From Candidatus Cloacimonadota bacterium (GTDB lineage: Bacteria; Cloacimonadota; Cloacimonadia; Cloacimonadales; TCS61): a stretch of 40,868 nucleotides of DNA. Below, in pieces: positions 17,244-36,691 of the stretch. Each line of letters opens with the position of its first letter. Within the stretch, counting starts at the first letter, position 1. The position numbers were made by a program, and so were the translations under genes. The DNA lies in NCBI GenBank assembly GCA_021734245.1, contig JAIPJH010000015.1:1-40868 (forward strand). Reading direction: 5' to 3'. The notes beneath the pieces were generated by a model. That model saw only the letters and a program-made list of their open reading frames with translations. It ran no database searches and had not been told where the DNA came from.

Positions 17244-17280
17244 AAAAAAAACCTTCCAGATTTCGAAAACCTGGAAGGTT
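17244..17280 (-). terminator. Intrinsic terminator of the leftward secreted-protein unit
   Basis: AACCTTCCAG (17250-17259) and CTGGAAGGTT (17271-17280) make a perfect 10-bp stem. On the minus strand the stem is followed by a run of T from the A-tract at 17244-17250, the classic rho-independent form. It lies beyond the stop of the 738-residue secreted protein (17412). For the plus-strand ltaE it directly follows the stop but lacks a plus-strand T-run. Confidence 0.8.
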
Positions 17281-17411: not shown

Positions 17412-19628
17412 TTATTTCAACAATAAAACTTTTTTACTTCTTACTTCTTTCCCAACTTTCAATTTCACAAAATAAACTCCGCTGGAAACAGGTCGATTGT
17501 TGTAGTCGGTACCGTTCCAGACAACTACACTTTCACTCGTTCCTAAACTCCCGTTTGGGAACGTAAATGTCTTCACTTTCTGGCCTTTCAAATTATAGAT
17601 ATCTATGTTCGTAAAAAAAGACGTTTGCGTTACGTTAAAACTAATTGTTGTAGTTGGATTAAACGGATTGGGGGAAATATTCAAATCTAATTCTGGTTGG
17701 ATCACGTCATTTCCTATTCCGGTAATTTCAGCCGTCAAAAGATAAGGATCGGTTGGGCTGCCGCAGGTTTCATTGTTCAGGAAATTCATAGTTTCATTGC
17801 AGGTATACACTTCATCGCTTGCTTCATCGTAGATCATGAAGCTTATTTCTTCACCATCGGTATCTCCAACAACAGTAAAATACCAGAAACCAAAATCGTA
17901 ATAAGGTGGATTGGCTGGTTGCCAGGCTGCAATACTTCTGCAATCCGATTCTCCACCCGGTCCAAAAGCTCCGACCATATTATTTCCTGTATTATCAAAT
18001 TCATTACCTTCAAATGTGATCGCAGCCATCACTACCATGGAATATTGAGTTCCGCTGATTACTGACCAATCTGGAATTTCATCGGTATTTGCATTTTCTT
18101 TTTTTTGTTTTGTTAGGATGGCATCTGTTCCACCGTACACCAGAATATCAGAAGCATTCATGTCAATTTTATAACCTTGATTTGGCTCCATCTGCAAAAG
18201 ATCGCCAACCCAACTTCCGGGAGGATTGATATAATTAGCAGTTTGCGATTGACTTTTTACCTGATTTACATTCTGTGCGATAATATACAGAGCATCATCC
18301 AAAGGAATAATTGTGCGTGGATAATAGGCTATCCAATTCCAACTTTCTGTCAAATTGATCGGAGTGTTCACATCAATAGGTTCACCATTCAAAACAAAAT
18401 CGTTAACGGGATTAGTCATATAAACCAGATATGCTTCGCCATCAGTAATCTCTGTTAAATTACCGATCCAGGTTTGAGAAGCTTCAAAATAGGTGGCAGA
18501 TTGCGTTTGATTTTTAACCTGATAAATATTTGCGCCCAACGTTCCAAAAACATTGGAAATCGCTGGATCAATGGGATGTACGTAAAATGAAATCCAGTTC
18601 CAGTATTCTCCCAGATCGATCACTTGATTAATACTGAAATCGATATTCAAAGTATACGGATCTTCCGGAGTTCCCAAAGTTGAGTTATTATCAAAATATA
18701 CAGTTTCCCAGCAATCATAAACTGCAGATGTGGAACTTTCGTAAACTTTAAAGCTGATTTCTTCATTTTGAATATTTCCTACTACAGTAAAAAACCAGTA
18801 TCCATCCCAATATGGCAGATTGGGTTCCTGCCAGACAGCAACTCCACGACAATCATCTTCGCCACCGGGTCCAAAAGCTCCAATATGATTTATTCCATCA
18901 TAAACAATCGGATCGGAACCAAACATAACTTCACACATTATTACCATGCTGTATTGTGTACCGGAAAGTGGTTCCCAATCGATAAGAGTAAAATCGATAT
19001 TTTCAGTATTTTGCCCCTGAATCACTTCTACATCTGTTTGTGTAACTGTATTGTATCCGGAAAGTGAAGCCGTAATATTATATGTTCCAGGCACAGCAGG
19101 AAGTTCATAATATCCGCTGCTGTTGGGATGAACAGAATAAGTTCCATTGGAAACATCAGCATTTTGCAAATCACCGGCCGGCGGTGTTGTGGTGAGTAAT
19201 GAAATAGTTCCTGTTATCAGATTGGAACCGACTGAAAGCAGATAAGGATCGGAGGGAGAACCAATTGTATCATTATCTTGAAAAATAAAAGTCTGATCGC
19301 AATCATAGATTTGATCGGAAGCTTCGTCATAGATTTTAAAGCTGATTTCCTCACCGTTTGTATTACCCACGATATTGAAATACCAGAAGCCCGGATTTCC
19401 TGATTCCCAACCTGCAATATCTCGGCAGTCGCTGATTCCACCAGGGCCAAACGCTGCAGCCATATTCGTTCCTGTACTTTCAAAATAAGAACCATTATAA
19501 AGAATTCTGGCGAATAGTATCATGGAATACTGAGTTCCGGTGATTGGCTGCCAATTGGGTGGATCGGCCGCAAGAAATGTAGACGAAACCAAAAAAAGCA
19601 AAATTATTATAAACTTAAATTTTTTCAT
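17412..19628 (-). CDS. Secreted protein with three cysteine-paired A modules, two B modules and a sorting domain
   Basis: 738 residues with a signal peptide (1-20, ...STFLAAD). Three copies of a roughly 105-residue A module lie at 25-131, 218-327 and 521-631. Each has GTQYSM, then AFGPGGxxDCRxxAxW, WYFxxVG, EEISFxxY and a closing C before a GSPxDPYxL-type turn. Each copy keeps two cysteines at equal positions (C68/C110, C260/C306, C563/C610), suggesting a disulfide. A carboxypeptidase-regulatory-like domain lies at about 138-214. Two B modules (341-417, 426-498) share WNWI, QVKxQxQxAxY and WxGxL. The tail (about 652-738, PNPFNPTTTISF...SSGVYF...VLLLK) is the type A sorting domain. The function is unknown; surface adhesion or a matrix role is inferred. 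The start overlaps the upstream gene by ATGA, so the two are co-translated. Confidence 0.85.
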   Translation of the reverse strand: MKKFKFIIILLFLVSSTFLAADPPNWQPITGTQYSMILFARILYNGSYFESTGTNMAAAFGPGGISDCRDIAGWESGNPGFWYFNIVGNTNGEEISFKIYDEASDQIYDCDQTFIFQDNDTIGSPSDPYLLSVGSNLITGTISLLTTTPPAGDLQNADVSNGTYSVHPNSSGYYELPAVPGTYNITASLSGYNTVTQTDVEVIQGQNTENIDFTLIDWEPLSGTQYSMVIMCEVMFGSDPIVYDGINHIGAFGPGGEDDCRGVAVWQEPNLPYWDGYWFFTVVGNIQNEEISFKVYESSTSAVYDCWETVYFDNNSTLGTPEDPYTLNIDFSINQVIDLGEYWNWISFYVHPIDPAISNVFGTLGANIYQVKNQTQSATYFEASQTWIGNLTEITDGEAYLVYMTNPVNDFVLNGEPIDVNTPINLTESWNWIAYYPRTIIPLDDALYIIAQNVNQVKSQSQTANYINPPGSWVGDLLQMEPNQGYKIDMNASDILVYGGTDAILTKQKKENANTDEIPDWSVISGTQYSMVVMAAITFEGNEFDNTGNNMVGAFGPGGESDCRSIAAWQPANPPYYDFGFWYFTVVGDTDGEEISFMIYDEASDEVYTCNETMNFLNNETCGSPTDPYLLTAEITGIGNDVIQPELDLNISPNPFNPTTTISFNVTQTSFFTNIDIYNLKGQKVKTFTFPNGSLGTSESVVVWNGTDYNNRPVSSGVYFVKLKVGKEVRSKKVLLLK

Positions 19629-20323
19629 TTTACCTCTGTTTTATCATTGGTTTTGTTTTTTCTGGAAACTTCCTCATCCAAAATGAGAGTATCGGAAGAA
19701 GCTGTAACCACATAAAACTTTCTGGTGTATTGTTCAAAATCAAAATCGATCCAGGTGGTATCTGATGTGTGACCAACAAGATTTTCTGAAGATTTTACGA
19801 CATCAACAGTATCATCGGCATAAATGTAATAACTGTTTGCGTTTATTGAAGTTGACCAGGATAATGCTATAATTTCTCTAGTAGAATTGAATGAAATATT
19901 TACGTTTTGTGGAGGTAGAAGTAAGGTGAATTCCGAAGTTAAAGTATATGGATCACTGGGAGAACCAAATGTATCACCATCCTGAAAAATGAAAGTTTGA
20001 TCACAATCATAGATCTGATCGGAAGCTTCATCATAGATTTTGAAGCTAATTTCTTCTCCGTTTGTATTACCCACGATATTGAAATACCAGAAGCCCGGAT
20101 TTCCTGATTCCCAGCCTGCAATTTCTCGGCAATCATCGATTCCACCCGGACCGAAAGCTGCAGCCATATTTGTTCCAGAATTATCAAATGATGAATTATT
20201 GAAGATGATTGTGGTAAAAAGCACCATGGAATATTGAGTTCCAGTTATTTCCTGCCAGTTAGGAGGATCAGCAAAAATATTTAAGCTGATAAAACAGATA
20301 ATAAATATCAGTATTATTTTCAT
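19625..20323 (-). CDS. Exported protein with one A module and a fibronectin-III-like domain
   Basis: 232 residues from the ATG at 20323, which gives a clean signal peptide (MKIILIFIICFISLNIFA). An upstream in-frame ATG would add 19 charged residues before it. No Shine-Dalgarno is evident at either start. The A module spans about 20-128 (NWQEITGTQYSM, AFGPGGIDDCREIAGW, EEISFKIYDEASDQIYDC) with both cysteines. A fibronectin-III-like domain follows (about 136-215), then a charged tail. It lacks the sorting domain of its neighbours, so it may stay periplasmic or pair with the next protein. Its DNA is 56 of 56 bases identical to the first module of the downstream gene over 20058-20113, a sign of recent duplication or conversion. 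Confidence 0.8.
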   Translation of the reverse strand: MKIILIFIICFISLNIFADPPNWQEITGTQYSMVLFTTIIFNNSSFDNSGTNMAAAFGPGGIDDCREIAGWESGNPGFWYFNIVGNTNGEEISFKIYDEASDQIYDCDQTFIFQDGDTFGSPSDPYTLTSEFTLLLPPQNVNISFNSTREIIALSWSTSINANSYYIYADDTVDVVKSSENLVGHTSDTTWIDFDFEQYTRKFYVVTASSDTLILDEEVSRKNKTNDKTEVK

Positions 20324-20365
20324 GATTTTAAATGAAAATTTATAAAATCTCTCTCGAATAGATAA

Positions 20366-20401
20366 TAATTCCCAGACCATATGAATACAGCCTGGGAATT
20401 A
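20366..20401 (-). terminator. Hairpin after the beta-helix protein gene
   Basis: TAATTCCCAG (20366-20375) and CTGGGAATTA (20392-20401) form a 10-bp stem with a 16-base loop, 12 bases past the stop at 20413. On the minus strand it is followed by an AT-rich stretch without a pure U-tract. It may be a partial terminator separating the pilus cluster from the last two genes. Confidence 0.5.
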
Positions 20402-20412
20402 ATTTTAACAAT

Positions 20413-23400
20413 CTATTTCATCAAGAGACATTTACGGATTTCTTCGTGACCGTTCCACTTCAGTTTATAGAAATAAATTCCCGAACTTTGATCGCCGGCA
20501 TTCCAAATGATATCATGGTTTCCAGCAGATTGCTGCCCATTAACCAATGTTTCTACTAACTGGCCTTTTGCATTGAAAATCTGTAGTTGAACTTTTCCGT
20601 CCTGTGGTAAATTATAGGAAATCAAAGTTTCCGGATTGAAGGGATTAGGATGGTTTTGAGCTACCTGGAATCGTTCTGAATTACTTGGAGTTATATTTTG
20701 CTTCTGGAAATTTATCTGGAATAATTCTCTGGGATTTCCGGTGATTTCATTTGGTTGATAAGTGATAGTTTCCTCTGAGAACAGAGTGGAATTCGAAGCA
20801 TTATCGTACAATTTTAATCTTAAATTTTCGATTTCATCTCCGATGATAGTAAAATACCAGAGATCATTTTGCAGTGTTCCAATGCTGTGGCAAAGACCAT
20901 CTTTATCAAAAATTCCAACAGAATAATTTTGATCATCTTTCAATTCTTCACCATTCAAATAAATCGAACTCATCAAGATCATATTGGAATCTGTTCCCGG
21001 CATCAATTGCCAGTTTGCCAGGTTGGAAGGATTAAGTTTGATCAGATTTTCGCGTGTTTCTTCTACATGCGGTGGATAATCCAGGAAAAGCGGATCGTCG
21101 GGTGTTATTTCGTCCGGCCAATAAAGAATGTAGGATATTCCGGGTTGCATGGTTGTAAGATCACCGATCCAACCTCCGTAATAAACAGCAGACTGGGTCT
21201 GAGTTTTGATCATAGTATCATCTACCACGCCGATACTTTCCAATGCTTCTTCCAGGGTCAATTCCGTTTGGGGTAGATAACTTATCCAATTGTAGAATTG
21301 CTGAAGTTGTATTCGATGTGTAAGAGGATTTATTTTTTCGCCGGAAAAGGTGTATCCATTGTATGAATTCAGCATATAAATTTTGTAACCTTCATAGTAG
21401 TTAAGAGAATCCAAACCTCCAAACCAATCGATCATAATCGGATCGTATTGGCCAAAATCGGTTTGAGATTTCACTTGTAAAATATCTGGAACTACTTCCA
21501 GAACATCAAATAAACCATCGATCAAGTAATCTGCTGGTTCCAGATTAAAAGATACCCAATTCCAATTATCCATCAGATCAAATTCCATATCATAAGAGGG
21601 TGAGTCGATTGTGAGATCAACTCCACTGGGATAAATCACGCAATCATCAAAAATAATTTCTTCATTACAATCTAAAATGGTATCGGTTTCTTCATTATAA
21701 AATTTAAACCAGATATTATCCAAGCCACTATCATTATCGCTGACGATGGTAATGTACCAATAACCGCCCAATGGCCAGTAATTTGTCCAGAAGACATGAT
21801 TTCCACCTTCCCAGGTAGCAAGTCCCCGACATTCTTCGATCAGTCCAGTGGCCTGATCATAACCAAACGCTGCTAGCTGATTACTGCCTGTTTTCGACAT
21901 GAATTCTCCATCATAAGTTACTGTGAAATAAGCTGTCATCACGTATTGCGTTCCAGTGATCGGCTGCCAGCCATCAATCAAGGTAAAATTGATATTGGGT
22001 GTCGTCTGGAAAGCAATCACTTGAATATCGCTTAGTATCATGGTCGAATAACCAGACAGGGAAGCGCTGACGTCATATGTTCCATTTAGAATATCTAACG
22101 AGTAAGTACCATCGGCAGCGGGAGAGACCGAAACTGTTCCTGCCGTGATGATAACATTTTCCACGTTTCCGGCACCTCCGAAAAGAGTTACAGTTCCTGT
22201 GATTGTTCCTTCATTCAATACCAGTGGCAGATAAAAATCGATTCCGGTTGTCTGCAGTCCCGATTCTACAACCACATCTTCCTGAATCTGCGTTTCATAG
22301 CCGGGAAGTTCTGCTGTAACATCATAAGTTCCAGGAGTGATTTCCAGAATATATTCGTAATACAAAATTGTACCTGGATTGAAAGGATCTTCTACTGGAT
22401 AGGGATTTGTTATCAGGTTCCCCGCCGATACTTCCACGTTTTCCGGATTTCCGATTCCTTCTACTTCCACCTGACCGACAATTTCTCCAGGTGGTGGTGG
22501 AGAGAGAGTTAAGTTGATTACAACAAGTTCATTTTGAACAACTAAATTATCAAATCCACTCGAACTATAACCAGTCAATGTAGCAACCAGATCATAAGTT
22601 CCAGCCACCAGACTGAGCATATAGTTTCCATCTGCATCAGGATTCGTAGTATAAACAGTTCCGGGTGGAGTAGTTAAGGTAGCAGTTACCAAAACGTCTT
22701 CCACGCTTCCGGTTCCGCCATCCAGTGTTATAGTTCCGGTAATGCCGTTTTGTGCAAAGAAAAAAGCTCCCATATCGGTATTTGTGCCATCGGGATCCAG
22801 GGGACTATTGGGATCACCAGTATCGATACAGGGAGATTTAGTTTCATCGGGAGTGGGGATGTTTGCCCAAGTAAGTGAATAATCTCCGTTGGTTGGATCA
22901 GCAAAAAGCGGATCTTCATCGATACATCCAGTTCCAAAATAACTCTGTCCGGTAGCGGATTCCAAATCGGAATAAGTAGCCGATAACGAGGCAGTCGGTT
23001 CCAGATAGATATTATTTGTTGCATCTCCCCAAACAATAGAATTCAGTATAGTAATGTTAGAATTATAAAGTGCTGCAAGTCCAGAACCTGATTGATTGGC
23101 GACATTGTAGGCGATTGAACAATTTGTAATTTCCGGATTTGAACCGTTGAAAGCTGAAACACCGCCACCGTTCCATTCCGTAAAGTTATCTGCAATAAGT
23201 ACATAGTTCAAGGTAGGATCGGAAGCATAGCAGTTGATTCCTCCACCATCATATTGAGAAACATTATCTGTGATTTCTACATTTTCGAATATAACATCAG
23301 AATAAGATATATACAAACCACCACCAGCACCGGATGCAACATTGTCATAAATTTTTGAATCGTAAATTTCAATATTTGAAGCATTACAATAAATTGCACC

Positions 23401-23877
23401 TCCTGTTGTAGCGGAATTGTTATTAAAATTGCAATTATAAAATTCAGGTACCGAATTGTAACAATAAATTACTCCTCCGCGGTAGTCCGATCCAGATCCA
23501 GTAGCATTACCATATTCAAAATTACAATAATGGAATTGAGAAGGGTCCAGTCCATTTGTGTATGTATCATAAAATCTTAATCCATGCCAACCTTCTGTGG
23601 TATTTAGAGCCGTAAATGTAATTGAATTACCATCAACTCCGTTCGCTAAAATTCGACCATAAACATAGAATTTGTAATATCCGGAAAATTGGATATCGAC
23701 TCCCGCATCGATGACGAGTTGATCTCCACTTGCCAGTTCAATCTCTCCATCGATAATGTAAGGGCTTTCTGCTGCAGTCCAGTCCAGATCTATCAATACT
23801 CCGGCTGGAATGTTTGTTTGTGCTGCCAAAAAGGCAAATGAACAAATAATAATTATTACGCTATAAACTCTTTTCAT
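20413..23877 (-). CDS. Large secreted beta-helix protein with regulatory-like, A and B modules and a sorting domain
   Basis: 1154 residues from the ATG at 23877, chosen for the GGGAGG five bases upstream and the signal peptide it creates (MKRVYSVIIIICSFAFLAA). About 40-325 is a right-handed beta-helix of GGGxY/NNxA-type coils, closed by a choice-of-anchor-Q-like SPCIDTGDPNSPLDPDGT (348-365). Three carboxypeptidase-regulatory-like domains lie at about 378-460, 463-552 and 556-635. An A module (about 637-757) keeps both cysteines (EECRGLATW, LDCNEE). Two B modules (770-845, 860-930) and a degenerate A module (955-1058) with only one cysteine follow. The sorting domain is at 1074-1154 (HPNPFNPETLISY). 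A carbohydrate-binding or adhesive surface role is inferred. It starts 20 bases after the lipoprotein gene. Confidence 0.87.
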   Translation of the reverse strand: MKRVYSVIIIICSFAFLAAQTNIPAGVLIDLDWTAAESPYIIDGEIELASGDQLVIDAGVDIQFSGYYKFYVYGRILANGVDGNSITFTALNTTEGWHGLRFYDTYTNGLDPSQFHYCNFEYGNATGSGSDYRGGVIYCYNSVPEFYNCNFNNNSATTGGAIYCNASNIEIYDSKIYDNVASGAGGGLYISYSDVIFENVEITDNVSQYDGGGINCYASDPTLNYVLIADNFTEWNGGGVSAFNGSNPEITNCSIAYNVANQSGSGLAALYNSNITILNSIVWGDATNNIYLEPTASLSATYSDLESATGQSYFGTGCIDEDPLFADPTNGDYSLTWANIPTPDETKSPCIDTGDPNSPLDPDGTNTDMGAFFFAQNGITGTITLDGGTGSVEDVLVTATLTTPPGTVYTTNPDADGNYMLSLVAGTYDLVATLTGYSSSGFDNLVVQNELVVINLTLSPPPPGEIVGQVEVEGIGNPENVEVSAGNLITNPYPVEDPFNPGTILYYEYILEITPGTYDVTAELPGYETQIQEDVVVESGLQTTGIDFYLPLVLNEGTITGTVTLFGGAGNVENVIITAGTVSVSPAADGTYSLDILNGTYDVSASLSGYSTMILSDIQVIAFQTTPNINFTLIDGWQPITGTQYVMTAYFTVTYDGEFMSKTGSNQLAAFGYDQATGLIEECRGLATWEGGNHVFWTNYWPLGGYWYITIVSDNDSGLDNIWFKFYNEETDTILDCNEEIIFDDCVIYPSGVDLTIDSPSYDMEFDLMDNWNWVSFNLEPADYLIDGLFDVLEVVPDILQVKSQTDFGQYDPIMIDWFGGLDSLNYYEGYKIYMLNSYNGYTFSGEKINPLTHRIQLQQFYNWISYLPQTELTLEEALESIGVVDDTMIKTQTQSAVYYGGWIGDLTTMQPGISYILYWPDEITPDDPLFLDYPPHVEETRENLIKLNPSNLANWQLMPGTDSNMILMSSIYLNGEELKDDQNYSVGIFDKDGLCHSIGTLQNDLWYFTIIGDEIENLRLKLYDNASNSTLFSEETITYQPNEITGNPRELFQINFQKQNITPSNSERFQVAQNHPNPFNPETLISYNLPQDGKVQLQIFNAKGQLVETLVNGQQSAGNHDIIWNAGDQSSGIYFYKLKWNGHEEIRKCLLMK

Positions 23878-23897
23878 GGCTACCTCCCGTGCCAAAC

Positions 23898-25688
23898 TTA
23901 TGGTTTAACTTGGATTATTTTCAATCCTACATTGTCTGTGATATAGGCATAACTTCCCACAACACAGATCGATATTGGTTCACTATTCATTTCTATATTT
24001 CCCAAAATGTCGGGATGATTATAATCACTAGCATCTATAACATAGAAACCTAATTCTTTGTCAACAAAATAAGCAAAACCTTCTTCTGCCCATACTCCAT
24101 AAACATAACCATCAGTATCAATTCTGGATACTTCTGTTGGATTTGTTTGATCTGATACATCAATTATTTTCATGCCGTTTTCACCATCTGCCACATAGGC
24201 ATAATCTCCAACAACATGTATATCAATAAAGCTGCCAGAAGTGTCTTCTTCACCTACTAGAACAGGATTTGCATGGTCTGTGATATCAAATATTTTCAAA
24301 CCTTCAATACCTTCAGCAACATAAGCATAATTTCCACTAACAAATACATCTCTGGCATTTTCAAGATCGTAATTTGCTACTTGATGAAGATCCGAACCGG
24401 CAATATAAATTATTGAAAAACCTGCATTACCTTCTGCAATATAGGCATAATCTCCACTAACAAAAATATTCTTGGGAATTCCCTGCGTGTCTGAATAGCC
24501 GATTAATACGGGTTCAGTGAGACTTGCAATATCAAGTTTGTGAATTCTTCCCGGATCGGTAGGCGTGGAATGTGTAGCTACATACGCAATATTTCCAATG
24601 ACATATGATGATAATGTTCTGTCAGCAAGTTCATAATATCCTAAAACTTCAGGAACATTTGGTTGGAAACAATCAATTACTGCTAAACCATAATATTCAT
24701 CTGAAACAAAGGCAGTCCAATCTGAAAAATAAACTTCCAAGGCATTACCAGGTGTTTGCACTTCCCCAACGATCTGCAGATTGATATTGATCGTATCAAC
24801 TTCGCTATAAACTGAGAAAAGTGTATCCTGAAAAGCCCGAACACGATAATACAGAGTTGCGCATTGAAATTCAATATCATCTACATAGGTTGTTACATTG
24901 CTGTCTACTACAGTATATTCATTATTCCAATCATCATCACCTACTTTTCGGTCTATGGAAAAACCATCCTCACCTGTAGAATTATCAGTCCAATTCAAAC
25001 GGATCTTATCTTCGTCCAGAACAACTGTATACAATCCAGATGGTGAGAGTAGAGTTTGAAATAAACTATCTTGTGCAGAAGGAGAAGTTTCAGACCCGAA
25101 ATATGCCGAAACTCTGTAATAAAGTGTATCAAATAGTGCAGCTTCATCCGTAACTTCTGTCGTGTTCTCGGCCAATTTGAAATATTTGTTATTCCAGTTT
25201 CCATTACCAATTTTCTTATCGACATAATAACCTTCTTCGCCCACGCAGCGATCGAACCAGCTGATCTCTACATTAGATTGATCTACTGTTTCCACTTCTA
25301 CATCGTAGGGTGCAGTATTGGCAGACATGTAGGCATCAGCTTCGGAATACTGCGAAAAAAGTGCTGTTTCCAAATTGTAATAACGAACTTTGTAGGCATA
25401 TACCAGGCTGTCATCTGTTGGAATGTAATCGAAATATTCAAATGTGTCACTATCAACCTGAGCAAAATATTCATCCCAGGGCTCTTCTCCAACTTTTTTT
25501 GCGATAAAGAATTCCAGTGTGTCGCCTTCTGAATTATCGTAAAGCCATGAAATTTTTACTATACCTGTGGAAGTTTTTTCTACCGTTAGATTGTAAGGAA
25601 CATCTCCGGCTACCGGTGCAGTGGCATCTCCGCAACAATACAGCAAAACTGAAATTAGCGGAATAACCAGAATCTTCAGGATTTTCAT
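23898..25688 (-). CDS. LVIVD-propeller protein with fibronectin-III-like repeats, probable lipoprotein
   Basis: 596 residues from the ATG at 25688, with AGGAAG upstream; a GTG two codons earlier is possible. The N-terminus MKILKILVIPLISVLLYCCG has a lipoprotein-like hydrophobic stretch ending in two cysteines (C18, C19), although LLYC is not a canonical lipobox. Three fibronectin-III-like domains occupy about 28-300 (VEISWFDRCVGEEGYYVDKK, IRLNWTDNSTGEDGFSIDRK). Residues about 300-596 are LVIVD repeats (VSGNYAYVAEGIEGLKIFDI, VVGDYAYVADGENGMKIIDV) that should form a beta-propeller. Surface or outer-membrane attachment is inferred. It lies 35 bases after the secretin gene, so it is probably co-transcribed with pilus genes. 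Confidence 0.84.
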   Translation of the reverse strand: MKILKILVIPLISVLLYCCGDATAPVAGDVPYNLTVEKTSTGIVKISWLYDNSEGDTLEFFIAKKVGEEPWDEYFAQVDSDTFEYFDYIPTDDSLVYAYKVRYYNLETALFSQYSEADAYMSANTAPYDVEVETVDQSNVEISWFDRCVGEEGYYVDKKIGNGNWNNKYFKLAENTTEVTDEAALFDTLYYRVSAYFGSETSPSAQDSLFQTLLSPSGLYTVVLDEDKIRLNWTDNSTGEDGFSIDRKVGDDDWNNEYTVVDSNVTTYVDDIEFQCATLYYRVRAFQDTLFSVYSEVDTININLQIVGEVQTPGNALEVYFSDWTAFVSDEYYGLAVIDCFQPNVPEVLGYYELADRTLSSYVIGNIAYVATHSTPTDPGRIHKLDIASLTEPVLIGYSDTQGIPKNIFVSGDYAYIAEGNAGFSIIYIAGSDLHQVANYDLENARDVFVSGNYAYVAEGIEGLKIFDITDHANPVLVGEEDTSGSFIDIHVVGDYAYVADGENGMKIIDVSDQTNPTEVSRIDTDGYVYGVWAEEGFAYFVDKELGFYVIDASDYNHPDILGNIEMNSEPISICVVGSYAYITDNVGLKIIQVKP

Positions 25689-25723
25689 AATCACTTCCTA
25701 TGATTTAACATCATCATTTAAAC

Positions 25724-26911
25724 CTATTGATTTTTAAAAGTTTCTTTTGCTTTGTTGAATTCATCAGTTTCGTGTTGAATTTGATCATCTAAAGATTGCA
25801 TTCTATCCTTTCGCTCGGAAACAGGATCAATTATTTCAGCTTTTAAAACTATGATCATTTCATTTGTATTTACTGAATAACTATTATAACCAAAAATATA
25901 ACGCAATCCAAATAACCACCAGGGAAGATCTTTTAAAATTGGAACTCCGGCTCGTACTGTTTGCCTGTCCGTATCATACAAACCACCGATCACAGTTTCT
26001 TCTCCATCAAACAATAAAACATCTGTTGATGAACTGCTTTTATCGATGATCGTGGTAACAGTACCAGGTGAAGCACTGCTTTTTTCTACGCTTGCAGAAA
26101 GAAAGATAGCTTCTTCGCCATCCCGTTCGATTATGGTTGGAGTTACATTCAAAATAATACCAGTAGAGAAAAACGATTCAGTTGTATTTCCTGCTTCATC
26201 CAGTCTTTTCACCGAGAAATCCTGGCCCACCTGAATGGTTCCGTTTTTGCCTGAAAGTACCGTTACACTTGGCCGGGCAACCACTGAACCTTTTTGATAT
26301 TGTTCCAGGATTCTAAGTAATACATCCAATTGGATATTTACGTTTCCTGTTTGCATGTTATAACTGGTGGCTGCATTGAAAATGTCATCGCTTACACTGT
26401 TTGCACCTTTAAAGTTTACCTGAGCAACAACGTCTCCACCAAACAACGTAGACCAGTCTATTCCGATATCCCTGGACAAAGTTTTATCTGTTTTGAAGAA
26501 AATAGAACTGATTCTTACTTGTTTACTGAGCGGTGTTATTCCCGCTAAAGATTCATCACCAGCAGCTGCTCCTAATTCTTCTTCGATCATTGGATCGGTA
26601 ACCATATAAGAACCAGGTCGTTCCTCCAAGTCCAGATTATGAAGCTGAACGATCAGTTCCAGAGCATCTTTCCAATACAATTTATGAACTGGAATACCAA
26701 CAGCCTCATTATTTGAGCTGGTCGTGATTATCTTCTTGTTTTCAAACTGCAAGGAAATGACTTCAATTGCTCGAAGAGCAGCTACTATGTTCGTATTTCG
26801 GGAAATACTGATCAATTCTTCTGGTTGATAACTCATAGTTTCGTCAATATCTTCCTGTGCAAACAGAGTAAATAAGCAACTAAGTAAAACCATTAATATT
26901 ATTTTTTTCAT
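25724..26911 (-). CDS. pilQ: Compact secretin (type IV pilus outer-membrane channel)
   Basis: 395 residues, much shorter than a typical PilQ or GspD. A signal peptide (1-18) precedes one small N-domain (about 30-105). The secretin core is about 130-365, with VARPSVTVLSGKNGTIQVGQ, the TGIILNVTPTI strand, VLLFDGEETVIGGLY and GVPILKDLPWWLFGLRYIFG, the hallmark C-terminal motif. No AMIN domains are present and only one N-domain is visible. A coiled, charged tail (367-395) could serve as a pilotin-like binding region. It forms the outer-membrane gate for the pilus. It lies three bases after the PilO-PilP-like gene. Confidence 0.88.
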   Translation of the reverse strand: MKKIILMVLLSCLFTLFAQEDIDETMSYQPEELISISRNTNIVAALRAIEVISLQFENKKIITTSSNNEAVGIPVHKLYWKDALELIVQLHNLDLEERPGSYMVTDPMIEEELGAAAGDESLAGITPLSKQVRISSIFFKTDKTLSRDIGIDWSTLFGGDVVAQVNFKGANSVSDDIFNAATSYNMQTGNVNIQLDVLLRILEQYQKGSVVARPSVTVLSGKNGTIQVGQDFSVKRLDEAGNTTESFFSTGIILNVTPTIIERDGEEAIFLSASVEKSSASPGTVTTIIDKSSSSTDVLLFDGEETVIGGLYDTDRQTVRAGVPILKDLPWWLFGLRYIFGYNSYSVNTNEMIIVLKAEIIDPVSERKDRMQSLDDQIQHETDEFNKAKETFKNQ

Positions 26912-26914
26912 AAA

Positions 26915-27796
26915 TTAATCCTCATACTGCCTTAAAATCAAAATATATTCTTTGGGAAGTCCTGTTTTATTTGTAATGAAAACAGCATTCTGATCTTCCC
27001 AGTTTATTCTATCCAAATAACCATAAGCGATCTTATCACCAGGAACTATAACCTGGATCTTGCCGTTTTTATCTAAAATAAATACTTTATCCGGTGTTAA
27101 TCCTATCATTCTACTTGCGTAGATATCTATAAATCTTTCTTCATGAACATCTGGGATTGGGCCATGAATACGAGGAATAAATGGATGATAATCCAGATTT
27201 TTGTATCTAAGATATCGGAAAGGAATGTCATCAACTTCTACGGCATTTTCTTCATAAAAGGCTGTAATTACTAATGAAAAATACACATAATCACTTGGTA
27301 TGTCTTCTTCGGGTTCTACGCCAGATAACCTTATCGATTTGATTATGTAGAGCATGAATTGATTTTCTAATTGATAGATAAATGTATATAAAGATGTAAG
27401 TGCCCCTCGGCCTATTATGGAATAGGAATTAAAATTAGCTGTTTCTCGCTGGCCGCTTTCTACAAATTTAAAATCAAATCGAAGGTCTGGACAGTAATTC
27501 TCGCAGATATCAAGAAGATAAGCATAAGTAATTGTAGGATTGTTGTCCTTTGCGATTAATTTACTTTCGCTTTTCACTCTTCTTTCCAATTCATCCAGAG
27601 ATTGAACAAGAACATCCTGGTCTTTCATGTCAGGGTTTGCTCTTCGTAAATTATCAAGCTGTGCCTGGTTTTCATCAAGTCGATTTTTTATTTCCTTCAT
27701 TTTTTTAGCGGACTGATAGTTATTTATAAATGAAAAGGCAACTACACAAATAAGCAATCCAACTAAAATGAGCGTATTCCTAAGAGCATAAGGCAT
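26915..27796 (-). CDS. PilO-like inner-membrane protein with PilP-like C-terminal domain
   Basis: 293 residues. One membrane helix lies at about 8-25, then a coiled coil (30-80, KKMKEIKNRLDENQAQLDNL) and a ferredoxin-like PilO core to about 180. The C-terminal part (about 228-293: SRMIGLTPDKVFILDKNGK, VPGDKIAYGYLDRINWEDQN) reads like the small beta domain of PilP/GspC, which contacts the secretin. I infer a PilO-PilP fusion linking the inner-membrane platform to the secretin; in most systems these are separate genes. GAGGAG precedes the start. It lies between the PilM-PilN fusion and the secretin. Confidence 0.78.
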   Translation of the reverse strand: MPYALRNTLILVGLLICVVAFSFINNYQSAKKMKEIKNRLDENQAQLDNLRRANPDMKDQDVLVQSLDELERRVKSESKLIAKDNNPTITYAYLLDICENYCPDLRFDFKFVESGQRETANFNSYSIIGRGALTSLYTFIYQLENQFMLYIIKSIRLSGVEPEEDIPSDYVYFSLVITAFYEENAVEVDDIPFRYLRYKNLDYHPFIPRIHGPIPDVHEERFIDIYASRMIGLTPDKVFILDKNGKIQVIVPGDKIAYGYLDRINWEDQNAVFITNKTGLPKEYILILRQYED

Positions 27797-27823: not shown

Positions 27824-29959
27824 TTATTTATTCTCCAATTTGCTCAGTTTATATTTGGCTGCTACAGCAAGCTCGTCTTGTGGATAATCGGCTATTAAAT
27901 TGTTCCAGCTTGCTCTTGCCATATTTTTCTCTCCAAGTTTTTCCCAGCAATTTCCAAGCATCATAAGTGCATCGGGTGCTTTCTTGCCACGTCCCTGGAA
28001 GATTGTTTCGAATACTTCCATTGCTTCATTATAACGTTTTAGAAGATAAAGGCATTCTCCTTTGTAATAGGTTACATTATATGCCAAATTATGATCTGGA
28101 TATTGTCGCAGAAAGTCATTGAAGAGTTTGATTGCAGATTGGTAATCACCAGCAAAATATACATCCAGAGTATGTCTGTATTCTCTTACCACTTGATCAT
28201 CTGAGACTTGTTCCTGCTGCTGAGTTTCAGTTTCGGACACAGTTTTAGTTTCTTCTTCAGTTTCCTGAAGTATTCTTTCGGCATCTTCTTTTTGTTCATC
28301 CGATTGTTGTGAAGTCTGTTTAATTATAAGATCTTCATTCATTCTGATTTCAGTTGCATCAGGATACAGATATGTGATATCGAATTGCCAGAGATTTTGA
28401 TCTTCGATTTGATAGCGGGAAATTGAAGAAATACTTCCTTCAGGGAAAAGTTCAGAAACTTCAAGAATTCCCCTGCGATTAGTAGTATATCCGGTAATTG
28501 AAAAACCCCCATTATCGCTGGCGATATTTTCCAGCCAGCTCAAAGGATTTCTATCTAATGAATTGGAAAAAGTATCCAAAATATAATACCAGATATTTTT
28601 GTTTCCAGAGAGAGCTTTTACTTTTTCAAAGTTTTGTTCCAGAGCGCTCATTTTAGATTTGATCTCATTGAGTTTTGTGATCAAACCCCGATTACGCCGT
28701 AATTCGCTTTCTACGGTGTAGTTATCTTGCTCGTATGTAACGATCTTCTCTTTAATGTTCAAATTTCGAACAGTTCCGGAAAAGGCAAAATAGAAAATTA
28801 GCGCTAAAATTACAAATCCGTGCCAGGCAATCTTAAAGTATTTTTGGTTTTCTATAACCTTGGCAGGTAATAAATTAGATTTAAAAAAATCTTTATTTTT
28901 GGGTTGTAAAGCTTTCCAGGCCAACGAAATTGGAATGGCATATTTTGCAATTACTTCATCTGTAAGATCGTTCTGTCTTGCTTCTGGAATTTTCAGTTTT
29001 GGTAGTTCTAATCTATGAATTTGACCATCATCGGTAGATTTTTCACGGAAGAATTCCAGATCTTCATCCGAAACACGATCTCCCATCAGAATTACATTTT
29101 TGGTGATCTGCATATCCGAGATATCCTGTTCCAGGATCACTTTGGAATAAATAGCCTGTCTTGTTGCAATATCATCACCTTCTGGAACAATGATCGGGAA
29201 GGTTTTGATGTGAACACCTTCCTTCATTACGATACCTACTTTGTATTCGTTGCCAATGTATAAAAGAAGAACGTATTCATCTTCTTTGCATTCGTAGTTA
29301 TGTTTAACTAAATTTATAAGAGCCAATTCATTTGTGTCTACATGATTATAGAAATATCTTTCCTTAGAAAGGCTGAGGTTTATATCTCTCAGGGCATGGA
29401 ACAATTCCAATTTACCACGATGAACAAAAGCTACTCCGGATTTGTTGGGGTTTATAACATAATCGAGTATATAATCTTTGGTTTTAATTTCTTCTGGAGT
29501 CAGCATTTCCTGCTGAAGTTTTTTTCTTAATTTAGATTTGGCATAAGCTGCATCAAAATGAAAATAGGAGATCCTTTCATCATTTGCATTCATCCCGATC
29601 TTGCCTTTTTCCAAAGGATAGACTTGAAGGAAATTCTGCAGCTCTTTTAAACCGGGAAGAGATTCATCTTTTTTTGTTACCAGTTCATCAAGGTCTTCGG
29701 AAGATTCAATATCGGTTGTGACATCTAATTCAAAATCTTCCGTATTCAGATCATCCAGATCAGCAAATTCTGCTTCTTCATCCGGCAATTTACTTATTTT
29801 GTCTTCAACGTCTTCTTCCTGTCGGAAAAAAGGAGTGGAAATAAGTGTTTCTCCAACTTGTTCCAGAATAACATTGTTATCTTTTAAGTTGAGCTGTGCT
29901 ACTTTGATCATCAGCCCATCTTGAAAAACACCAAATGCTATCTTTTCTTTTTTAGCCAT
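27824..29959 (-). CDS. PilM-PilN-like fusion with C-terminal TPR domain
   Basis: 711 residues. About 1-360 resembles the actin-like PilM/GspL cytoplasmic domain (KIAFGVFQDGLMIKVAQL opening, LLLYIGNEYKVGIVM mid-domain), with a long acidic insertion at 48-100. A single membrane helix (376-395) and coiled coil (400-450) begin a PilN-like periplasmic part to about 535. A Q/E-rich linker (546-590) leads to TPR repeats (591-705, YFAGDYQSAIKLFNDFLRQY, LMMLGNCWEKLGEKNMARAS) of the YbgF type. I infer an alignment-complex subunit that also binds partners in the periplasm. It starts 15 bases after pilT and ends 28 bases before the PilO-like gene. Confidence 0.78.
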   Translation of the reverse strand: MAKKEKIAFGVFQDGLMIKVAQLNLKDNNVILEQVGETLISTPFFRQEEDVEDKISKLPDEEAEFADLDDLNTEDFELDVTTDIESSEDLDELVTKKDESLPGLKELQNFLQVYPLEKGKIGMNANDERISYFHFDAAYAKSKLRKKLQQEMLTPEEIKTKDYILDYVINPNKSGVAFVHRGKLELFHALRDINLSLSKERYFYNHVDTNELALINLVKHNYECKEDEYVLLLYIGNEYKVGIVMKEGVHIKTFPIIVPEGDDIATRQAIYSKVILEQDISDMQITKNVILMGDRVSDEDLEFFREKSTDDGQIHRLELPKLKIPEARQNDLTDEVIAKYAIPISLAWKALQPKNKDFFKSNLLPAKVIENQKYFKIAWHGFVILALIFYFAFSGTVRNLNIKEKIVTYEQDNYTVESELRRNRGLITKLNEIKSKMSALEQNFEKVKALSGNKNIWYYILDTFSNSLDRNPLSWLENIASDNGGFSITGYTTNRRGILEVSELFPEGSISSISRYQIEDQNLWQFDITYLYPDATEIRMNEDLIIKQTSQQSDEQKEDAERILQETEEETKTVSETETQQQEQVSDDQVVREYRHTLDVYFAGDYQSAIKLFNDFLRQYPDHNLAYNVTYYKGECLYLLKRYNEAMEVFETIFQGRGKKAPDALMMLGNCWEKLGEKNMARASWNNLIADYPQDELAVAAKYKLSKLENK

Positions 29960-29974
29960 TTCTTATTACTCTCA

Positions 29975-31195
29975 TTAACTGGAATATTGGATTAACTGAT
30001 TCATTCGTTTCGTATTGTTTGCATAATTTAACGCAGTATCTTTGGTGATCTTACCAGTTATGTAATGATTATATAGATCTTGTTCCATGGTAATCATTCC
30101 ACTTTTTTTGCCTTCATTAATCATCTGATAAATTTCACCTATGTTTTTATTTCTAATTGCAGCTTTTACTGAAGAATCAACAGAAAGAACTTCTTTACAC
30201 ATCAGAAGATCACCTTTTTTGGTCGGCACTAATTTCTGAGAGATGATAACTCTGAGTGTATCTGCCAGGCGCATTCTAACTCTTTCCTGTTCTGCTGGTG
30301 GAAATTCTGCAATAATTCTGTGAATACTATCAACAGCATTGCTTGTATGAAGTGTGCTGAAGACTTTGTGTCCACTATCTGTAGCTTCCAGCACTGTTGC
30401 TATTGTCTGGGGATCGCGCATTTCTCCTACAACAATTATATCAGGATCTTGCCGAAAAGCCTGGTGAGTTCCTTTTTGAAATGATTCGACATCATCACCT
30501 ACTTCTCTGTGGCGAACAATACATTTTATTGAATCGTGAACAAATTCGATAGGATTGCTGATGATAACAATATGACCGTGATTAATTTTGTTATTCATAT
30601 CAATAATAGAATCCAAGGTTGTACTTTTGCCGGAACCAGTAATACCTGTTACCAGATACAATCCTGATTTCTCATATTTCAAGTTTAGCTGTCTGTTTAT
30701 TGAATCGGCAAATCCCAGCTCTGTAATATGCATAAGATGATCATTTATTCGGCGAAAATTAGCGACAATCTCATTACATTCAAAATAGACGTTCCCTCGA
30801 AAGCGAGTAGGTTTACTATTACCATTTTCTAAATCGAAACTCATGGAAAAATCGATGTTTTTTTTCTCTAAAAGTGTATAAATTTGATTTTGATTCAATA
30901 TGGCTAGCAGCATACACGTTATTTCATCTTCGGTGTAACGGCCTAATTTTTTGTAGGGATTTTTTAATCCAAAAATTCGCAACCATATAAAACCATTGCA
31001 ACCGGGCCCACCAATATCTATATCGGAAGCTTCATAACTTCTCATTTGTTTCATTAGTGATTTCAAATCATGATAAGCTTCTTCTCTCCAAGATTCGTGT
31101 TTCATCAAGAGCTTGTCTATAGAAGCAGCTCTTTCTGCACCTGATTGAAATCCAGGAATCGAATTTTGCAGCTCAGTTAAAAATGAAAAACCCAT
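29975..31195 (-). CDS. pilT: PilT-like pilus retraction ATPase with altered Asp box
   Basis: 406 residues. Walker A is GITGSGKST (184-192), Walker B is DIIVVGEMRD (252-261, E258), and the His box is STLHTSNA (H283). An N-terminal PAS-like domain of about 170 residues precedes the ATPase core. The family Asp box TIEDPIEFVH is here IISNPIEFVH (211-220): the paired E-D is replaced by S213-N214 while E217 is kept. It would power pilus retraction at the cytoplasmic membrane. GAGG lies four bases before the ATG. It begins a second block after a 154-base gap. Confidence 0.9.
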   Translation of the reverse strand: MGFSFLTELQNSIPGFQSGAERAASIDKLLMKHESWREEAYHDLKSLMKQMRSYEASDIDIGGPGCNGFIWLRIFGLKNPYKKLGRYTEDEITCMLLAILNQNQIYTLLEKKNIDFSMSFDLENGNSKPTRFRGNVYFECNEIVANFRRINDHLMHITELGFADSINRQLNLKYEKSGLYLVTGITGSGKSTTLDSIIDMNNKINHGHIVIISNPIEFVHDSIKCIVRHREVGDDVESFQKGTHQAFRQDPDIIVVGEMRDPQTIATVLEATDSGHKVFSTLHTSNAVDSIHRIIAEFPPAEQERVRMRLADTLRVIISQKLVPTKKGDLLMCKEVLSVDSSVKAAIRNKNIGEIYQMINEGKKSGMITMEQDLYNHYITGKITKDTALNYANNTKRMNQLIQYSS

Positions 31196-31349: not shown

Positions 31350-32207
31350 CTATGATGGATTTCCGGACATTAATTTCAGCATTACAATACGCTGCAAAGA
31401 TTTACGCCATTTGAAAAAAGTGCTGTTAATAAGGTTTATCATGAATCTTTTAAGAAGTTTTTCACCTTTGTAGGCAAAGAATTCAAGAAGTTGTTTGCGA
31501 TCGAAATGTCTTACTTTTACTTCGGTTTCTGCCCGTAGAGAAGTAAACGTGGATCCTGCTAAAATGAAGCTTTCTTCGCCACAGGTGTCCCATTTTTGAA
31601 GATAATCTACAATTGTATTGTTCATCCACATGGAAATCTCACCATTTTCCAAAATCAGGATGGAGCCTGCTTCTTCAGTTCCCAATGGAATTTTATCTCC
31701 AACTGAGTATTTTTTCACTCTTCCCAGTGTCATAAAATCTATTTTATCATCAACGGAAAATCCATGAAGTATGATCGGTTCACCTTTGCTAACGCCCTGT
31801 GATCCAGGATCAAAAGCTTTCTGCAGTGGGCCATAAAGGTCATCTGAATATTTGAGACCAGCTTTAACTACTTCGAAAAGTTCATCGGCATTAATGGGTT
31901 TGGAAAGATATTGAAAAGCTCCGGCCTGAGTGGCTTCAACTGCGCCTTCCACGCTGGAAAATCCCGTAAGAATAACTACAACAGCCAATGGTTGTTTCAG
32001 TTTGATCTCCTGCATCAGTTCATAGCCGTTCATCTTGGGCATGGCCATGTCCAACAGGAAGAGATCGAACAATTCCAAATCCATTTTGCGAAGAGCATCT
32101 TCGCCATCAACAGCTTGCGTTACACTGTATCCTTCGTCTTCCAAAAGCTCGGTGCAAAGTTCTCGGATACTAACTTCGTCGTCCACAACCAAGATATTTT
32201 TCTTCAT
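31350..32207 (-). CDS. Response regulator with C-terminal cNMP-binding-like domain
   Basis: 285 residues. The receiver domain (1-125) is intact: D9/D10, phospho-acceptor D53 in LFLLDMAMPKMNG, T81 and K103 in LSKPI. Residues about 145-245 look like a cyclic-nucleotide-binding beta-roll (VKKYSVGDKIPLGTEEAGSI, WDTCGEESFILAGSTFTSLR). The arginine that normally contacts the cyclic phosphate (RxA after the GE motif) is not evident; TFTSLRA stands there. No DNA-binding domain follows, only an amphipathic tail (250-285). It probably acts by protein contact on the pilus machinery. It starts 16 bases after the kinase-like gene. Confidence 0.85.
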   Translation of the reverse strand: MKKNILVVDDEVSIRELCTELLEDEGYSVTQAVDGEDALRKMDLELFDLFLLDMAMPKMNGYELMQEIKLKQPLAVVVILTGFSSVEGAVEATQAGAFQYLSKPINADELFEVVKAGLKYSDDLYGPLQKAFDPGSQGVSKGEPIILHGFSVDDKIDFMTLGRVKKYSVGDKIPLGTEEAGSILILENGEISMWMNNTIVDYLQKWDTCGEESFILAGSTFTSLRAETEVKVRHFDRKQLLEFFAYKGEKLLKRFMINLINSTFFKWRKSLQRIVMLKLMSGNPS

Positions 32208-32223: not shown

Positions 32224-33138
32224 TTAATCTTCTTTTTTAATATTTTCTCTGGCTTTTTTTACAAGTTCCAACTGCTTCAGTTTTTGAATTGATTCCATTA
32301 GATTATTTATCTTTGTAACAGATTGAGCCATTTGATTTCCAGCTTTTTCCAATTTTTGATCTTTGAATTCGTCTGCTGCCATCAAAACTCTGCGAATAGA
32401 TAGTGAGATCACTGTGAGAGGATTATTGATGTCATGATCAAGATTTGCCAGTTTAGCAGATTCTTTTACCACTAATTTATATTGTTCTTCTTTCAGTCTA
32501 TTCAAAATGATCTTTCGTTGATTTTCGGTAAGAGAGTTTTTAACTTCCAGTAAACTTTCTTCATTTTCTATCATGATATTTGAAATCTTTTTCAGCATAT
32601 CACTAATAAAAGATGAAATAAATGCAATACCTGTAAAAAGGCCACAATAAGAGATCAGAAAAATAGTTTGGGAAGGAATATCGATGTTGAGTGGTTCTCC
32701 ATTTACAGGAGTTAACCAGTCAAAATTATATAAGATCAAAAGAATCAATAAACATGTACTTCCAATCATTGCGGCGAGGATTCCTCCTGACTGTTCGATG
32801 GAAAGACTGGCAGTAATAACAGCTATCAAATAAATCCAGATAAACGGACTGGAAATACCACCGGTAAGATGCACAACCAAAGTTGCAAAAATTATATCAA
32901 GAACGATCTGAATAGCTCCGATCATATTGCTGCTTTTTAAAACCTGCATATGGAAAAGAATATTTAACACACTAATTCCCAGGAAAGTGGCAACAAACAC
33001 TAATACAGGATAGATCTGATTTACTTGACTTACCTGAAGAATTCCTATTGCAAAAAGAATTAGAACAATAAACCAGCGCAGTTTTGACCACCATTTATAC
33101 ATTTGTACTTCGGGATTTACAAAATCTTTCTTTTCCAT
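32224..33138 (-). CDS. Six-helix membrane protein with histidine-kinase DHp region but no ATPase domain
   Basis: 304 residues. Six membrane helices lie at about 20-178 with a RegB/PrrB-like HLTGGISSPFIWIYLI signature (90-105). A coiled linker leads to an H-box LANLDHDINNPLTVISLSIR (230-249, H235) and a second DHp helix to about 290. The protein then ends at 304 with no N, G1, F or G2 box of a HATPase domain. It could be a phospho-transfer or phosphatase partner needing a separate kinase, or a decayed kinase. It lies directly before the response regulator and after the third PilX-like gene, so it is embedded in the pilus operon. Confidence 0.8.
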   Translation of the reverse strand: MEKKDFVNPEVQMYKWWSKLRWFIVLILFAIGILQVSQVNQIYPVLVFVATFLGISVLNILFHMQVLKSSNMIGAIQIVLDIIFATLVVHLTGGISSPFIWIYLIAVITASLSIEQSGGILAAMIGSTCLLILLILYNFDWLTPVNGEPLNIDIPSQTIFLISYCGLFTGIAFISSFISDMLKKISNIMIENEESLLEVKNSLTENQRKIILNRLKEEQYKLVVKESAKLANLDHDINNPLTVISLSIRRVLMAADEFKDQKLEKAGNQMAQSVTKINNLMESIQKLKQLELVKKARENIKKED

Positions 33139-33154
33139 AATTTACTCCAAAAAA

Positions 33155-34060
33155 CTAATCATAAAATATGCTAACAAAATTAAATTGCATTTCGGTAGGG
33201 AAGGTCACAGAACTCAGAAAATCTGAAACAGCTTCTACACTGAATTCAATTACTGGTGAACCGGAAATCACTGTAGCAGAAATTTCGGTTCCGCCTTCCA
33301 CATAAAGCGCGCCTTCCACAGTTAAATTTCCTGTAATCCGCAATTCTCCTGTAACCCATAAAATACCATAAAAAGTACCACCCGAAAAATCTGCATCGCC
33401 GTCTATTACAGTTAAACCTGACCCCGACCAACCTGTAGTAGTAACTTTGAAACTATTACTTGGATCTGAAAATTTTACCCAGGTAATATCGGTGCAGGGA
33501 CTTATGTTATTCGCTGGATCGATATAAAGGTTTGTAGCCAGAGACTCTACATAAGCTTTTGATACACCAAAGATTTCTTCGAAATTTAGAGGTGGATCAC
33601 AGTTTGCATCGACATCTCCCACTACTGCTGCATTTCCCTTTATGATGATATCTCCATTGGCAGAAACTGCCGCTGTTATATTGGCAGGAACATAATTTAC
33701 GACTGCACTGGCACTTTTCTGCACAGTATCATTTCCAGATGGATATGATACATAGGTAGTAACGAAAATTGAATCTCCGGTAATGCTTTCTTTATAATAA
33801 AGGCTGTCAATTGCACCTTCTAAAACATTAAAATTGGAAAAACTGAGAGAAGCTTCTCCATTTACGAAATTTAAAGAACCATCATAGAGTTTTTTTATGC
33901 TGTAATTCAAAGCTTCATTACTGAGAGACTTTGCCTGGATCTTTGCCATGCTGCGCCCTGTATTTTCTGCTGAATCTTCTCTTTTGTCTTTTTGTGCCAA
34001 AGTTAATACTGTAAACGAAACAGCAGCTATCAGCAATGCAATGATTACAACTTTTCCCAT
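33155..34060 (-). CDS. PilX-like pilus-associated protein, paralogue 3
   Basis: 301 residues. It starts MGKVVIIALLIAAVSF, a single N-terminal hydrophobic helix, followed by the conserved AKSLSNEALNY block (43-53) shared by all three neighbours. The C-terminal half has beta-solenoid-like repeats (GSGLTVIDGDADFSGGTFYG, LWVTGELRITGNLTVEGALY), as in PilX-type pilus assembly proteins. It is the most diverged of the three: it lacks the HYYKNP motif of the others. A minor component at the pilus base or tip is inferred. AAGGAA precedes the ATG. Confidence 0.75.
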   Translation of the reverse strand: MGKVVIIALLIAAVSFTVLTLAQKDKREDSAENTGRSMAKIQAKSLSNEALNYSIKKLYDGSLNFVNGEASLSFSNFNVLEGAIDSLYYKESITGDSIFVTTYVSYPSGNDTVQKSASAVVNYVPANITAAVSANGDIIIKGNAAVVGDVDANCDPPLNFEEIFGVSKAYVESLATNLYIDPANNISPCTDITWVKFSDPSNSFKVTTTGWSGSGLTVIDGDADFSGGTFYGILWVTGELRITGNLTVEGALYVEGGTEISATVISGSPVIEFSVEAVSDFLSSVTFPTEMQFNFVSIFYD

Positions 34061-34075
34061 AATTTATTCCTTTTT

Positions 34076-35176
34076 TTAATTATCCCAGCTGATAATTTCT
34101 ACGTTAGTTCCTTCATTCTCAGAAGTTAAAACATAATCATCTTCAATATCTTCATCATAATTAACGGTAGCATTACCAGTTAATTTTACAGTTTTGGAAG
34201 GAGAAGTGTTTACAAAGATGGATCCATTTACGACGCTGTTACCTGTCATTTTAAAGCTTCCGCCTTCTACCCAGATAAGACCGTCGAAACTTGCCTGACC
34301 GGTATCTTTAAAGTTTCCATCAACAATTAAAAGTCCACTTCCAGTCCAACGGCCAGACATGTGAAGAGTATTATTTCCGGTTAGTTCTACATAAGTAATT
34401 CCGTTTATAGGTGAAACTTTTGTGGGTGGATTTTTGTAATAATGATCTGCAATATTTTTATAATAACTCATCACTTCACCAAGATCAGCTTCGATGCTGA
34501 GAGTTGCGTTCTCATTTAAACCACCGTTAATTTCGGCATTGCCTTTTAATGTTACAGATTTACTACAATTAAAAGCATTACCGTTATTTATACTTGTTTC
34601 ACCATCTCCACCCGATGTATAAAGAACTTTTGCCGAACTGTTGTATTGTTTATTTACACCACCAATATTTGAGCTTACGTAGGCAGTAATTGTAACGGTA
34701 GCACTGGATTCCGAATCGTCTTCATTTTCATTTTCTTCGTCTTCTTCCTCTTCTTCGTTACCATTTCCATTTCCATTTCCGTTGCCATTTCCGTTGCCAT
34801 TTCCGTTACCCTTATTTTTGTTACCTCTACCACAGATTAGGGAATTATCCTGCCAGCTAAAAACGATGTCATCATCATCATCATCATTTCCGGAGCTTGT
34901 ATCGATAACATAGACTATGCTGTCGATGGTACCATCAATTACGGTAAAATTGGAGAAAACCTGAGAAACCCGGGCTTGCGTAAGGTCTATTCTTCCTTCT
35001 AAAAGCTGATTGATTCCATATCGAAGAGCTTCATTGCTGAGAGATTTCGCTTTTATGCTTGCCATCCCTTTGGCAATTTGATCAGGTGCTTCAACTTTTC
35101 TGTTATTGATCTGTAAAGCTATCGTAGAAAATATTGCTGTTACTAAAACTATAATAATTACTAAAGTTCTTCCCAT
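34076..35176 (-). CDS. PilX-like pilus-associated protein, paralogue 2, with low-complexity insert
   Basis: 366 residues, with the same plan as its neighbours: MGRTLVIIIVLVTAI helix, AKSLSNEALRYGIN block, HYYKNPPTKVSPINGITYVE and a GSGLLIVDGNFKDTGQASFD solenoid. It differs by an insert of about 60 residues at about 93-155: an Asp run, then Gly-Asn dipeptide repeats, then a Glu/Asp/Asn-rich stretch. The insert probably makes a flexible, acidic, possibly ion-binding loop. The repeat units at DNA level are hexamers, so copy-number change keeps frame. AAGGAG lies eight bases before the ATG. Confidence 0.78.
   Translation of the reverse strand: MGRTLVIIIVLVTAIFSTIALQINNRKVEAPDQIAKGMASIKAKSLSNEALRYGINQLLEGRIDLTQARVSQVFSNFTVIDGTIDSIVYVIDTSSGNDDDDDDIVFSWQDNSLICGRGNKNKGNGNGNGNGNGNGNGNGNEEEEEDEENENEDDSESSATVTITAYVSSNIGGVNKQYNSSAKVLYTSGGDGETSINNGNAFNCSKSVTLKGNAEINGGLNENATLSIEADLGEVMSYYKNIADHYYKNPPTKVSPINGITYVELTGNNTLHMSGRWTGSGLLIVDGNFKDTGQASFDGLIWVEGGSFKMTGNSVVNGSIFVNTSPSKTVKLTGNATVNYDEDIEDDYVLTSENEGTNVEIISWDN
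34761..34814. repeat. Hexanucleotide repeat coding for Gly-Asn
   Basis: Nine consecutive hexamers of CCATTT/CCGTTG/CCGTTA type (plus strand), reading Gly-Asn on the minus strand. A TCA trinucleotide repeat coding for Asp lies at about 34869-34887. Neither is present in the two paralogues. Being multiples of three, length changes would alter loop size and not the reading frame. Confidence 0.85.
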
Positions 35177-35188
35177 AATATATCTCCT

Positions 35189-36076: not shown

Positions 36077-36092
36077 TTTTTACCTCATAAGA

Positions 36093-36689: not shown

Positions 36690-36691
36690 AA

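Follow-up and report, generated by a model that had tools for sequence, protein, structure and literature searches.

Three adjacent secreted proteins of a Cloacimonadota contig, referred to here as A, B, and C, carry six copies of a module of approximately 110 residues (three, one, and two copies, respectively) and are the final genes of a type IV pilus operon of about 23 kb, where they follow a secretin and an LVIVD-repeat lipoprotein. The shared module, together with the position of these genes at the end of the pilus operon across the class, suggests a dedicated surface-binding set for the pilus. We predict that A, B, and C are surface-binding proteins delivered by the T9SS that serve the type IV pilus, a reading to which we give a probability of about one half and in which the pilus location and the ligand are the parts that we infer. 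The three genes are called the cassette below, and the window is the whole stretch of 40,868 nucleotides that was analyzed.

The proteins, with their modules and domains, are all encoded on the minus strand. Protein A (17412–19628; 738 aa) opens with a signal peptide, which is followed by module A1 (19230–19556), a CarboxypepD_reg-like domain, A2 (18642–18980), a WNWISF-type region of two repeats, A3 (17730–18071), and a T9SS type-A C-terminal sorting domain (Por_Secre_tail; CTD) at 17427–17678. Protein B (19625–20380) is 251 aa as an open reading frame and 232 aa from the ATG of its signal peptide, and holds a single module (19934–20260) and about 100 further residues; a CTD was not found in B. 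Protein C (20413–23895; 1160 aa, or 1154 aa from an ATG at 23877) runs from a repeat-bearing N-terminal region, which weakly matches POMP/Chlam_PMP, through three CarboxypepD_reg domains, C1 (21613–21972), a WNWxSF-type region, and C2 (20704–21015) to a type-A CTD of its own (20428–20649). Directly 3′ of A, a terminator-like hairpin of 14 pairs followed by a T-run (17250–17280, minus strand) is likely the end of the transcript. A second terminator-like hairpin is located between C and B at 20366–20401, within the extended B open reading frame, and might lower the expression of B and A or set it apart.

The preliminary description of this region had proposed that one unit recurs six times in the three proteins. 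Each copy was held out and scored with a profile built from the remaining five, with 2000 shuffles per copy as the control. The held-out copies scored 171 (A1), 123 (A2), 155 (A3), 163 (B), 79 (C1), and 49 bits (C2), and since the best shuffled scores were 8–14 bits per copy, the recurrence is not a matter of chance and the proposed 3 + 1 + 2 arrangement stands. The two cysteines were said to be kept in five copies, and this is what we see: both are present in A1 (Cys 68 and Cys 110 of A), A2, A3, B, and C1, with one extra cysteine in each of A2, A3, and C1, and C2 has the first only. The GSPxDPY-type end from the same description is plainly visible in A1, A3, and B (A2 has GTPEDPY) but is missing from C1. 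GTQYSM, GPGGxxDCR, and WYFT are conserved motifs of the cassette modules. No further full copy was found in the 3.1 Mb genome, where a weak partial match on another contig (C27) was the only other hit.

No significant match to a named family was obtained for the module in Pfam, NCBIfam, PHROGs, or PDB sequence searches. Judging from sequence comparison, the module is a member of a wider family of exported units that has no curated name. Aligned with the generic AAFVxxECRG...FKIYD-type units, the cassette modules match over 102 columns, near full length, at a probability of 99.4% and an E-value of 4.7e-21 (hhalign), in a comparison that is partly dependent because the generic units were gathered using the window's own profile. 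These results agree with two earlier suggestions, that the module is a branch of this widespread unit and that it lacks a named family, as no curated Pfam or NCBIfam model matches either form. The window profile matches the genomes of 27 of 59 relatives, and distant copies are found in MAGs labelled Aminicenantes, Desulfobacterota, and Acidobacteria, where AFGPGGxxDCRG modules without the second cysteine were observed (L108–L124). Related genomes also encode giant exported proteins of 2000–3800 aa in which copies of the generic unit, mostly with the first cysteine only, form arrays (L133, L098–L101), and the array protein of one genome (G021) reaches up to ~6100 aa. With more than 250 distinct copies, this defines an uncurated domain family that is missing from annotation libraries.

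Of the 252 distinct modules in the alignment, 113 carry both cysteines, 124 the first only, 3 the second only, and 12 neither, so the two are not gained and lost together as expected of a disulfide pair. The first cysteine is present in 237 of the 252, including all six window copies, where it lies in CRG, and because about half of these 237 lack the second, the first does not appear to be kept for a bond. It occurs without the second in all 31 TNST-type modules of giant proteins and in 22 of 28 modules from outside the phylum, in classes set by simple patterns and hence rough, suggesting that the first cysteine is an old trait of the family, and that the second is particular to the cassette of Cloacimonadota. 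The idea of a disulfide-bonded branch of a cysteine-free unit therefore fails: the first cysteine is near-constant across the family and usual in the generic unit (in ECRG), which had wrongly been called cysteine-free, and only the second is specific to the cassette. Within the cassette branch, the second cysteine may pair with the first as a disulfide. In a coupling analysis, the Cys-Cys pair ranked around 1500 of 5151, with gap columns dominating and an Neff of ~206, and the result was uninformative.

AlphaFold2 models of modules B (pLDDT 95.0) and C1 (pLDDT 89.4) are both all-β, and the fold of the module is confidently predicted as an Ig-like β-sandwich, which answers the earlier call for a model of a single copy. 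For module B, the top PDB fold matches were starch-binding CBM20/CBM41 domains (1cqy, 8x8k, and 2j72; TM 0.41–0.54, E-values of about 0.01–0.13), and for C1 they were generic Ig domains and not starch-binding domains; no close structural homolog was found among the PDB fold matches of either model. Since the CBM20 matches are weak for B and are not the top matches for C1, carbohydrate binding by the modules is kept as a hint only. Membership of CBM20 was rejected given the absence of a Pfam or NCBIfam match, CBM20 TMq values of at most 0.49 with E-values of 0.009 or worse, and the absence of CBM20 from the top matches of C1. A fold match to a viral protein (A0A0F7L4H0; E-value of 3e-4, TM 0.64) was uninformative, as this protein is uncharacterized.

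The module tree rests on few columns and its bootstrap is not settled; in it, the C1 copies form one clade (support 100/99), an orthologous class in 17 loci, and the C2 copies another (100/100), an orthologous class in 16 loci. The sixth copy, C2, had been called degenerate, but its well-supported clade indicates a conserved orthologous subtype that has not decayed. Module B of the window groups with A1 (99/92), to which it is 83% identical, suggesting B is a recent lineage-specific relative of A1, and the B-type protein of another genome (G001) is placed elsewhere in the tree. Where genes are complete, C always has two modules and A has one to three across the loci, and cassette proteins of 240–266 aa with one module and little besides a CTD are common.

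The genes that precede the cassette, all on the minus strand, include PilB, PilC, a PilT-type ATPase, and a secretin, the set of a type IV pilus. Reading toward the cassette, a PilC-type membrane protein (38938–40278; T2SSF, 446 aa) and a PilB-type ATPase (37143–38918; T2SSE, 591 aa) are followed by five small proteins with hydrophobic N-termini (33155–37126; 301, 366, 295, 198, and 144 aa) that are minor-pilin-like by position and gave no match in Pfam. Three neighbours among these (33155–36076; 301, 366, and 295 aa) have a similar N-terminus, two of them share a VELTGNxxLHMSG-type stretch, and their copy number seems variable across relatives. A PilS-like membrane protein (32224–33138; 6TM_PilS and HisKA), in which no ATPase domain was matched and whose relatives are of equal length, has as its partner a response regulator (31350–32207) whose C-terminus is cNMP-binding-like. 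Next are the PilT-type ATPase (29975–31195; T2SSE family, 406 aa), a putative PilM/PilN-like protein (27824–29959; 711 aa), a protein that is PilO-like by position (26915–27796; 293 aa, one N-terminal TM and a coil, no Pfam match), and the secretin (25724–26911; PF00263, 395 aa). The 711 aa product unites a PilM/PilN-like part with C-terminal TPRs, the number of which differs between relatives. Between the secretin and the cassette is the LVIVD-repeat, β-propeller-like protein (23898–25694), which has a lipobox-like cysteine and adjoins C in linked loci; it matched only PF08309 and PF09826 (LVIVD, Beta_propel), and no PilY1/PilC β-propeller Pfam domain. At the contig end (40365–40868), a pilin-like open reading frame (40365–40757) has no normal prepilin start and is cut or garbled, probably an assembly edge.

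Across two Cloacimonadota families, most genomes that have the module show this order of pilus genes, LVIVD gene, and cassette. The second family (f13) belongs to the same class as the window's genome and a different order, and the arrangement is retained even though sequence identity drops to 40–50%. With this context, the proposed link to a pilus is stronger than could be seen from the proteins themselves; nothing in our analysis supports the surface-layer role suggested alongside it in particular. Apart from incomplete or fragmented ones, genomes of the family have either both the LVIVD ortholog and the cassette or neither. In some same-family genomes without the cassette the pilus operon stops at the secretin, several times with the S24/UmuC genes next that are found beyond A in the window, and the cassette proteins are therefore not needed for the pilus. 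In the order-level relatives whose downstream gene was read, the LVIVD homolog is followed by other large Ig-rich proteins, and the module was not found in the parts of these that were read. In the genome G026 (86% complete), a one-module CTD gene (L056:7155–7919) lies beside the aldolase gene that also neighbours A in the window; the TPR protein of the pilus operon was not found in this incomplete genome.

The T9SS sorting domains of A and C score 32.1 and 34.8 bits against TIGR04183 (cut-off 23 bits), a cut-off that B does not reach. The genome has ~148 matches to Por_Secre_tail-type CTDs, so a CTD inside an operon is not specific by itself. A T9SS translocon is found in the genome: SprA is present, as it is in 50 of 59 relatives with this genome included; PorV is there too, and a PorU-like protein scores 400 bits, slightly below the 420-bit cut-off. 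Cloacimonadota have been listed among the phyla that may have a T9SS (PMC11285876), and a scaffoldin with a conserved C-terminal domain has been described in the phylum (PMC8542988).

If A, B, and C do serve the pilus, they would be made together with it, A and C would cross the outer membrane via the T9SS using their CTDs (B has no sorting domain), and the proteins would remain on the cell exterior close to the pore of the secretin. There, the modules would either attach to a polymer or surface that the cell reaches by means of its pilus or dock onto the pilus. Several points count against this. Modules also occur in giant proteins that are not known to be near a pilus operon, and G026 has its one-module CTD gene despite the missing pilus TPR protein. 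The abundance of CTDs, the pilus operons without a cassette, and the lack of a close structural homolog weigh in the same direction.

The main rival to pilus service is that the modules are structural spacers, Ig-like beads that make surface proteins longer and stiffer, while other parts such as the N-terminal repeats of C and the WNWISF regions do the binding. The Ig-like β-sandwich with its generic fold matches, the alternation of modules with other Ig-like domains, and the long arrays of related units in giant proteins all fit such a role, but the small one-module proteins have little to space, B being a module and about 100 residues, and GTQYSM, GPGGxxDCR, and WYFT are conserved beyond what a spacer seems to require; we regard it as possible, though rather unlikely. 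That the gene order is frozen and without functional meaning, with A–C being ordinary T9SS surface proteins, would suit the many CTDs in the genome, the relatives with a cassette-less pilus operon, and the hairpin that separates C and B. We find this improbable given that the arrangement has held in two families despite the divergence in sequence, that the LVIVD ortholog and cassette come and go together, and that the gene junctions are short or overlapping. It is also conceivable, but highly doubtful, that the operon is a type II secretion-like system with A, B, and C as substrates that leave through its secretin, their CTD not being a T9SS signal. The order secretin-LVIVD-C-B-A would be in keeping with this and PF00437, PF00482, and PF00263 are common to type II secretion and type IV pili, whereas the second T2SSE-family ATPase in the PilT position and the PilS-like and PilM/N-like proteins fit type IV pili better, and the genome's SprA, PorV, PorU-like protein, and wealth of CTD matches argue for the T9SS.

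Returning to pilus service, we tentatively picture a composite organelle in which a type IV pilus would work with adhesins built of a lineage-specific two-cysteine module, delivered by the T9SS and not the pilus, with the LVIVD lipoprotein as an outer-membrane link. If a T9SS-signalled cassette is fixed to a pilus operon in two families, two surface machines that are usually studied apart would be linked. The cassette is a testable candidate for attachment to partners or particles in this uncultured phylum, which is common in both digesters and anoxic sediments. Searches of the open literature gave no paper on the cassette, and one may exist elsewhere.

According to PMC13082233, pilus assembly genes are in almost all digester Cloacimonadota genomes; the passage concerned says nothing of downstream surface proteins. 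The generic unit of giant Cloacimonadota CTD proteins and MAG homologs is close to the cassette modules in its near full-length homology, first cysteine in CRG, and tandem use in large exported proteins, and the cassette branch differs by adding GTQYSM, the GPGGxxDCR loop, a longer W-rich middle, and usually the second cysteine. CBM20/CBM41 have the β-sandwich in common with module B but no sequence similarity to it. Compared to typical T9SS type-A cargo, A and C share the CTD in a genome with the matching translocon proteins, but A–C are encoded within a type IV pilus operon and B is without a CTD. PilY1-type proteins are pilus tip adhesins, and the likeness here is that a propeller-like protein and large surface proteins are encoded with pilus genes; the LVIVD-cassette set differs in that its propeller-like protein does not have the PilY1/PilC Pfam domain and its export is apparently by the T9SS.
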